Part shown: positions 8,846 to 10,376 of the stretch, one piece after another
Layout: every line of letters starts with the position of its first letter
How positions within the stretch are numbered: the stretch's first letter is position 1
Source of the DNA: Deltaproteobacteria bacterium
Lineage (GTDB): Bacteria > CG2-30-53-67
Assembly (NCBI GenBank): GCA_013151235.1
Contig: JAADIO010000005.1
Span: 1 to 64,000, forward strand
Reading direction: 5' to 3'
DNA: 64,000 nt
The notes under the pieces: generated by a model
Databases searched by the model: none
What the model was told of the DNA's origin: nothing
Seen by the model: only the letters and a program-made list of their open reading frames with translations
Translations under genes and position numbers: made by a program

Positions 8846-8894
8846 GATGCCGCCCCGGGTAAACCGGGACGCTACAGGGTTTTTACCCGGCATC
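8846..8894 (+). terminator. Long hairpin downstream of the PEP-CTERM gene
   Basis: The inner stem GGGTAAA/TTTACCC extends into an outer GATGCC/GGCATC pairing across a 5-base left bulge, with an 18-19-base loop. There is no clean T-run after it, so it may be a Rho-aided terminator or an mRNA-stabilising structure. Confidence 0.5.
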
Positions 8895-8901
8895 GGTTTT
8901 C

Positions 8902-9086
8902 TTCATGGCCTTCATGTGCTTCATGGTAAATTGCTTTTCCGGTTTTGCTTTTCCTTTGCGCCCTTTGCGTCCTCTGCGAGATGCCGCTTGCCGCTTTTGC
9001 CTTTGGTATTGTTTTGTCCCTCTGTGCCTTTGCCCCTCTGCCCCTTGCCTTTGTCTCCGTGTTCTCTGTGTACTCCGTGGTGATAT
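8902..9086. repeat. Cluster of low-complexity intergenic repeats
   Basis: Three motif types follow one another: CTTCATGG-type octamers (about 8902-8930), TTTGCGCCCTTTGCGTCC with CTCTGCGAG (8953-8980), and CTCCGTG/CTCTGTG/CTCCGTGG (about 9055-9082). The second type recurs at 32912-33068. No gene is supported between 8810 and 9190. Confidence 0.6.
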
Positions 9087-9123
9087 GCTTTTTGATTTCT
9101 CCGCGGTCAGGCGTTCCTGCGAC

Positions 9124-9151
9124 TTGACACCCTCCCTGAAGATGGTAGACT
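9124..9151 (+). promoter_or_regulatory. Sigma-70 promoter for the selenoprotein glutaredoxin gene
   Basis: Consensus TTGACA at 9124-9129, a 16-bp spacer, and TAGACT at 9146-9151, with the ATG about 40 bp downstream. Confidence 0.6.
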
Positions 9152-9190: not shown

Positions 9191-9427
9191 ATGAGACTTG
9201 AACTCTTCCAGTTTCCGACCTGACCTTACTGCATGAAGGTCCGTCGGGCCATCCGCAGACTTGAGGTCGATATGGAGTACAGGAACATCCTCTGGCCGCC
9301 GAACATCCGGCGCCTTATCCGGGAGGGGGGACGCTATCAGATCCCCTGCCTCTTCATCGACGGGAAGGCGATGTACGAATCGGACGATATCATAGGTTTC
9401 CTGCGGGAACATTTCCCCGCCCGCTGA
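9191..9427 (+). CDS. Glutaredoxin-like selenoprotein (UPYC active site, UGA read as Sec)
   Basis: Small thiol-redox protein of 78 residues. From the ATG at 9191 the frame encodes MRLELFQFPT, then an in-frame TGA (9221-9223), then PYCMKVRRAIRRLEV and on to the stop. The TGA falls exactly at the first active-site cysteine of the glutaredoxin C-P-Y-C motif, giving U11-P-Y-C14. Both sides fit one glutaredoxin fold: first beta strand LELFQF before the UGA, then helix 1, the cis-proline segment YQIPCLFIDG, and the ESDDIIGFLREHF helix seen in Grx/GST-N proteins. A SECIS-like hairpin follows the UGA and a good promoter precedes the gene. The shorter ORF from 9233 would lack the active site. Reading UGA as Sec needs selA/B/C/D elsewhere in the genome. 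Confidence 0.85.
9229..9258 (+). promoter_or_regulatory. Bacterial SECIS-like hairpin after the UGA codon
   Basis: CTGC (9229-9232) pairs with GCAG (9255-9258), and ATG (9233-9235) pairs with CAT (9250-9252) across a 2-base bulge. The apical part holds GGTC at 9238-9241, 15-18 nt after the UGA, the position and loop composition expected for SelB binding. An inner GGTCC/GGGCC alternative pairing is possible. Confidence 0.6.
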
Positions 9428-9467
9428 ATTCCCGTCACCGGGAACGCTGATGAAAGGAAAGAAGACA

Positions 9468-10376
9468 ATGATCTTTGTTGCCGGGGGAACAGGCTTCGTC
9501 GGGCGCCGTCTCCTGAGAGGGTTGAAAGAGGAAGGACGGTCCATCCGGTGCCTCGTCCGGAACCGGGAAAAGGCGGAGTGGGTCGCAGGTCTCGGTTTCG
9601 AGGCCGCGGAAGGGGATATCTCCGATCCCGGATCCTTGAAGGGAGCGCTGGAGAGCATCGATACGGTGGTCCACCTCGTCGGAATCATCGAGGAAAAAGG
9701 CGGCGCCACCTTTGAGTCGGTCCACGTGAAGGGAACGGGACACCTCGTCAACGAAGCGGTTGCAGCCGGGGTGAAACACTTCTTCTACCAGTCGGCCCTC
9801 GGGGCGGATCCCGCCTCTCCCTTCGGCTACCTGAAAACAAAAGCCAAGGCGGAGGAGATCGTCACCTCTTCCGGAATCGATTATACGATCTTCCGCCCTT
9901 CCCTGATCGTAGGGGAGGGGGACGGCTTCACCGAACGGATGAAGCAGATCGTCTCCCTCGGCCCGGTCGTCCCCGTGCCGGGTGACGGGACGGCCCGCTT
10001 CCAGCCCTTTTCCGTAGACGACTGGTACCGTGCATTCCAAAAGGTGCTTGACGGCAAGGTGGAACGGAACCGAACCTACGAGATGGGGGGAGCCGAGCAG
10101 TTGACCTATAACGAGATCCTCCGGGAGATCCTGCTCGTCCTCCATCTGGACAAACTGATCGTTCATCTGCCGATGGGGCTTACACGGTTGATGCTTCCTT
10201 TCATGGGGCCGGCAAGATCGGTCGCCTCCCTCCTCGGGAAGGAGATCCCCGAGGTTACGGCCGACCTCCTCGCCCTTCTCAGCCGGGACAATATCTGTGC
10301 CATCGATTCCCTGGAGAAAGATTTCGGGATCGAACCGATCCCCTTCGCGGAGGCACTCCGATCCTTCCTGAAGTAA
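9468..10376 (+). CDS. NAD(P)-binding atypical SDR, NmrA/NDUFA9-like
   Basis: Predicted NAD(P)-dependent epimerase/dehydratase-type protein of 302 residues. The Rossmann nucleotide motif GGTGFVGRRLL sits at the N-terminus, followed by CLVRN, the GD(I) acidic turn and DTVVHLVG, as in complex I NDUFA9-like and plant isoflavone-reductase-like SDRs. Sequence alone does not give a substrate; quinone- or lipid-related roles are known in relatives. The ATG at 9468 has GGAAAG about eight bases ahead; another ATG lies at 9450. It is 40 bp from the selenoprotein gene and probably co-transcribed with it. Confidence 0.8.
   Translation: MIFVAGGTGFVGRRLLRGLKEEGRSIRCLVRNREKAEWVAGLGFEAAEGDISDPGSLKGALESIDTVVHLVGIIEEKGGATFESVHVKGTGHLVNEAVAAGVKHFFYQSALGADPASPFGYLKTKAKAEEIVTSSGIDYTIFRPSLIVGEGDGFTERMKQIVSLGPVVPVPGDGTARFQPFSVDDWYRAFQKVLDGKVERNRTYEMGGAEQLTYNEILREILLVLHLDKLIVHLPMGLTRLMLPFMGPARSVASLLGKEIPEVTADLLALLSRDNICAIDSLEKDFGIEPIPFAEALRSFLK

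Follow-up and report, generated by a model that had tools for sequence, protein, structure and literature searches.

A conserved in-frame TGA and a SECIS-like hairpin in a predicted selenocysteine glutaredoxin gene of the candidate phylum CG2-30-53-67

The window analyzed here is a 64,000-nucleotide stretch of DNA, and on its forward strand, at positions 9191-9427, lies a gene of 78 codons plus a stop, which begins with an ATG at 9191 and ends with a TGA at 9425-9427. Mechanical ORF calling on this locus returns only 9233-9427 (64 amino acids), as the first-pass annotation of the DNA had expected of standard gene callers. An in-frame TGA lies at codon 11 (9221-9223) and, when it is read through, 9191-9424 gives MRLELFQFPTUPYCMKVRRAIRRLEVDMEYRNILWPPNIRRLIREGGRYQIPCLFIDGKAMYESDDIIGFLREHFPAR. 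The TGA would thus encode selenocysteine (U11) as the first residue of a UPYC active site at 9221-9232. The same annotation had placed it at the position of the first active-site cysteine, with sequence typical of the fold on both sides and the second cysteine kept, and this description held: the resolving cysteine, C14 (9230-9232), is invariant in our alignment of the window protein with its homologues (A1).

The gene is preceded by a sigma70-type promoter, TTGACA-N16-TAGACT with an extended -10 (TGG), at 9124-9151. The TTGACA (9124-9129) had been noticed at first reading, and TTGACA-N16-TAnAnT is conserved in all six family genomes, where it begins 53-69 nt upstream of the initiation codon. 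The ribosome-binding site of the window gene looks weak beside those of its relatives. The region upstream of the promoter (8880-9115) is pyrimidine-rich and intergenic, with the degenerate repeats ctttgcgccctttgcgtcctctgcg and tgtgcctttgcccctctgcccctt. Downstream, a gene encoding an NAD(P)-binding SDR/epimerase-like protein (9450-10376, forward strand) begins 22 nt after the glutaredoxin gene. The two genes adjoin one another in 6/6 family genomes. However, they are convergent in the other five (L017, L018, L019, L040, and L041), and we therefore rejected the idea of a conserved glutaredoxin-SDR operon. The inversion of the SDR gene is confined to the window genome, even when compared with a genome of the same genus. 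That proximity has been kept through the inversion hints at a functional link between the two genes.

The full-length product matches two Pfam families above their cut-offs, GST_N_3 (9e-15) and Glutaredoxin (7.8e-14); for the latter (PF00462), the score is 52.1 bits against a gathering cut-off of 22.9, and GST_N_3 is the slightly better-scoring of the two. By sequence, the closest solved chains are those of cyanobacterial glutaredoxin A and glutaredoxin 3, while chain 7c10, which is annotated as a glutaredoxin, is a weak match only (E=0.018). An AlphaFold2 model made from the alignment (mean pLDDT 93.7) has its elements in the order E-H-E-H-E-E-H, so that the predicted fold is beta-alpha-beta-alpha-beta-beta-alpha, with residue 11 immediately preceding a helix at residues 12-24. 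When the model was compared with known folds, GST N-terminal domains and SspA were nearest, followed by glutaredoxin A. The protein contains a third cysteine, located after the presumed cis-proline (IPC). Based on the domain matches and the predicted fold, we therefore concluded that the window protein is a stand-alone, GST-N-type dithiol glutaredoxin.

The genome itself contains all four of selA, selB, selC, and selD, which the first-pass annotation had proposed to look for. The tRNA-Sec scores 73.3 bits, above the cut-off, and is also found by ARAGORN, with the anticodon UCA. It is present in each of the six family genomes, and SelA, SelB, and SelD exceed their cut-offs in all of the phylum's genomes (8/8). 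Judged by this gene content, the genome is one that decodes selenocysteine. An open frame past the UGA would also be expected if UGA were read as some other amino acid through a general recoding of stops. However, TGA ends six of the nine window genes that were checked, and is therefore an ordinary stop here; in addition, tRNA-Sec and SelB are present, and the position of codon 11 is occupied by the redox cysteine in homologues. We consider general recoding to be exceedingly improbable.

The gene was present in all six family genomes examined, which span three genera, and every copy has one TGA, at the same codon. Proteins from the other five genomes are 73-79% identical to the window copy, and third positions take most of the nucleotide change, both in the 10 codons 5′ and in the 64 codons 3′ of the TGA. 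Most changes in the ten codons upstream are synonymous and leave the peptide (MKLELxQFPT) conserved. TGA is one base away from both TGC and TGT, and the genome is a draft of 73 contigs, so we considered the possibility that the gene is a pseudogene or, as already raised in the first-pass annotation, that a cysteine codon had been turned into TGA by a sequencing error. Against this, the identical TGA recurs in six genomes from three genera, although the sequence around it differs at many synonymous sites. A TGA shared by six genomes, together with synonymous-biased change on both of its sides, therefore excludes both a sequencing error and a pseudogene, and we give this explanation next to no credence. 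Nor do homologues stop at the TGA, as they might have done if it were a true terminator; in the relatives, the reading frame continues past it. Outside the family, position 11 is a cysteine in all homologues aligned in A1 (from Atopobiaceae, Ezakiella, Betaproteobacteria, and others), which is what a comparison with Cys forms had been meant to reveal.

The same conservation bears upon a start at Met15 (9233), which would yield the 64-residue protein that mechanical ORF calling gives, with the upstream frame merely a leader. Such a product would be devoid of both strand beta1 and the catalytic residue. In contrast, the ten codons before the TGA form beta1 of the predicted fold, align with the Cys homologues, and are conserved at the protein level through mostly synonymous change. 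Since the frame is conserved before and after the TGA, a Met15 start is very unlikely.

The TGA is followed by a hairpin, GGUCC-GUC-GGGCC, with a stem of 5 bp (9238-9250, forward strand), which we regard as a putative SECIS core. The published rules for bSECIS elements specify a loop of 3-9 nt, a stem of 4-16 bp, a G in the first two loop positions, a spacing of 16-37 nt, and an MFE of ≤ -7.5 kcal/mol (PMC13188914). The glutaredoxin hairpin satisfies all of these, with its 3-nt loop (GUC, 9243-9245), whose start lies 19 nt past the UGA, its five base pairs, and a predicted energy of -12.8 kcal/mol. An apical GGTC, located 15-18 nt after the UGA, had been described previously; the GGTC is indeed at that distance (9238-9241), but it forms the 5′ arm of the stem and the apical loop is GUC. 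The geometry is the same in all six family genomes, and variation within the hairpin is confined to the loop. None of the four synonymous third positions in the stem varies (4/4 invariant), compared with 5/36 invariant in the rest of the gene (Fisher p=0.0014), although GC-rich preferred codons, or codon bias, may explain some of this conservation. When 44 nt were folded freely, the energy minimum corresponded to this hairpin for L036 and L041 only, with competing pairings in the other four of the six sequences. A lower stem, CUGC/GCAG, in the fold of the window sequence was dropped, as it is not kept in all relatives.

A comparable hairpin follows 197 of the 2142 TGAs in the window by chance (~9%), and the hairpin alone would therefore prove little and is supporting evidence only. 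The proof goes beyond it and lies in five other genomes, which conserve the TGA, the flanking protein, and the hairpin. Of the checks proposed in the first-pass annotation, all those open to computation gave a positive outcome. We are highly confident that 9191-9427 is a functional selenoprotein gene, in which selenocysteine would be inserted at UGA codon 11.

As we envisage it, the glutaredoxin gene would be transcribed from its own sigma70-type promoter, and the ribosome would meet the UGA at codon 11, where SelB with Sec-tRNA(Sec), bound to the GGUCC-GUC-GGGCC hairpin, would insert selenocysteine. This would yield a GST-N-type glutaredoxin of 78 residues, whose UPYC lies at the N-terminus of helix 1. 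Sec11 may attack disulfides of substrates or mixed disulfides with glutathione, after which Cys14 would resolve the Sec11 adduct. Glutathione would presumably recycle the glutaredoxin, both its role as donor and the substrates being postulated here. Genes of the GshA type (PF04107) and the GshB type (PF02955) are located close together on contig 55, and these domains are found in 8/8 genomes of the phylum. Glutathione is therefore a likely donor, and the genome can probably make it.

Selenocysteine glutaredoxins are already established in other bacteria. A Sec glutaredoxin (PF00462, UxxC) is classed as experimentally verified (PMC13188914, Table 1), and others are known from Geobacter sulfurreducens, Alkaliphilus, and Moorella (PMC1794560) or were reported in the Sargasso Sea (PMC1088965), while the structure of the C. 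oremlandii glutaredoxin (Grx1), with a U(C)PXC motif, has been solved (PMC7642778). The window gene is therefore a new member, from a new lineage. Like the known bacterial forms, it encodes a small thioredoxin-fold protein with UxxC, Sec being first (UPxC in C. oremlandii), followed by a bSECIS-like hairpin after the UGA, in a genome with Sec machinery. Set against published descriptions of the proteins of Geobacter, Alkaliphilus, and Moorella, the window protein differs in its lineage (the candidate phylum CG2-30-53-67), in its slightly higher GST_N_3 score, and in the third cysteine (IPC). Cys-form GST-N-type glutaredoxins of Atopobiaceae, Ezakiella, and Betaproteobacteria are 45-53% identical to it over their full length and share the CPxC...PCL...YES motifs, but have Cys in place of Sec and lack an in-frame TGA.

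In a survey of 386 genomes, a single further Sec glutaredoxin turned up, a distant one carried by two members of one genus (L142 and L143). This protein (QFETUPYCEKV...) likewise has UPYC, with its TGA at the matching position, and a hairpin-forming sequence downstream, but has VPV where the window protein has IPC. Its gene is located at 1501-1716, with AAGAAA-GGU-UCUUUCUU 3′ of the UGA. In a tree of the 78-residue proteins, it does not group with the window's; the tree is compatible with one origin of the Sec form or with several, and the two forms may have arisen independently or diverged long ago. It seems rather unlikely that the GST-N-type Sec form (IPC...YES) both evolved separately from the Sec glutaredoxins described earlier and serves as a dedicated redox partner of the SDR that adjoins it in 6/6 genomes.

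The first-pass annotation had noted that Sec-containing glutaredoxin-like proteins occur in some Deltaproteobacteria, a mention that does not fit this organism: its closest named relatives (L018 and L019) are CG2-30-53-67, and it belongs to that candidate phylum, not to the Deltaproteobacteria. CG2-30-53-67 has been treated as a candidate phylum whose sulfur metabolism involves Dsr (PMC11406059). Among the genomes sampled from this uncultured, sulfur-cycling phylum, the Sec-decoding trait is fixed, and ordinary ORF calling truncates a short active-site protein there. SelD and the glutaredoxin would be among its selenoproteins, probably joined by a PrdB-like protein.

SelD of CG2-30-53-67 (G000 contig 43:16238-17158, L077, and L074-L079) is itself a predicted selenoprotein, with an in-frame TGA in the six full-length copies, and the GUCC-N3-GGRC tip of the glutaredoxin hairpin also follows its UGA, with a spacing of 17 nt. 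The loop of the SelD hairpins with the common tip is mostly UUC, without a leading G. The four copies that were read have GAG-U-ACK, and the SelD hairpin is GUCC-UUC/GUC-GGAC. Scanning for TGA-N(11-17)-GTCC-NNN-GGRC gave 25 places, compared with 14 in a reversed control. Only three of the matches (glutaredoxin, SelD, and PrdB-like) are in plausible read-through genes; the others lack such a gene and look like chance. The occurrence of one tip in three unrelated genes suggests a common SelB recognition element, and GUCC-N3-GGRC, as a candidate SECIS signature specific to the lineage, could help to find the rest of the selenoproteome. The PrdB/GrdB-like gene (G000 contig 35:29683-29710, L105, minus strand) gives a 252-amino-acid read-through product, whose UPVC motif holds the in-frame TGA, and it has a GUCC-N3-GGAC hairpin. 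The protein matches TIGR04483 at 2.2e-31, below the equivalog cut-off, and its gene is likely the third selenoprotein gene of the genome.
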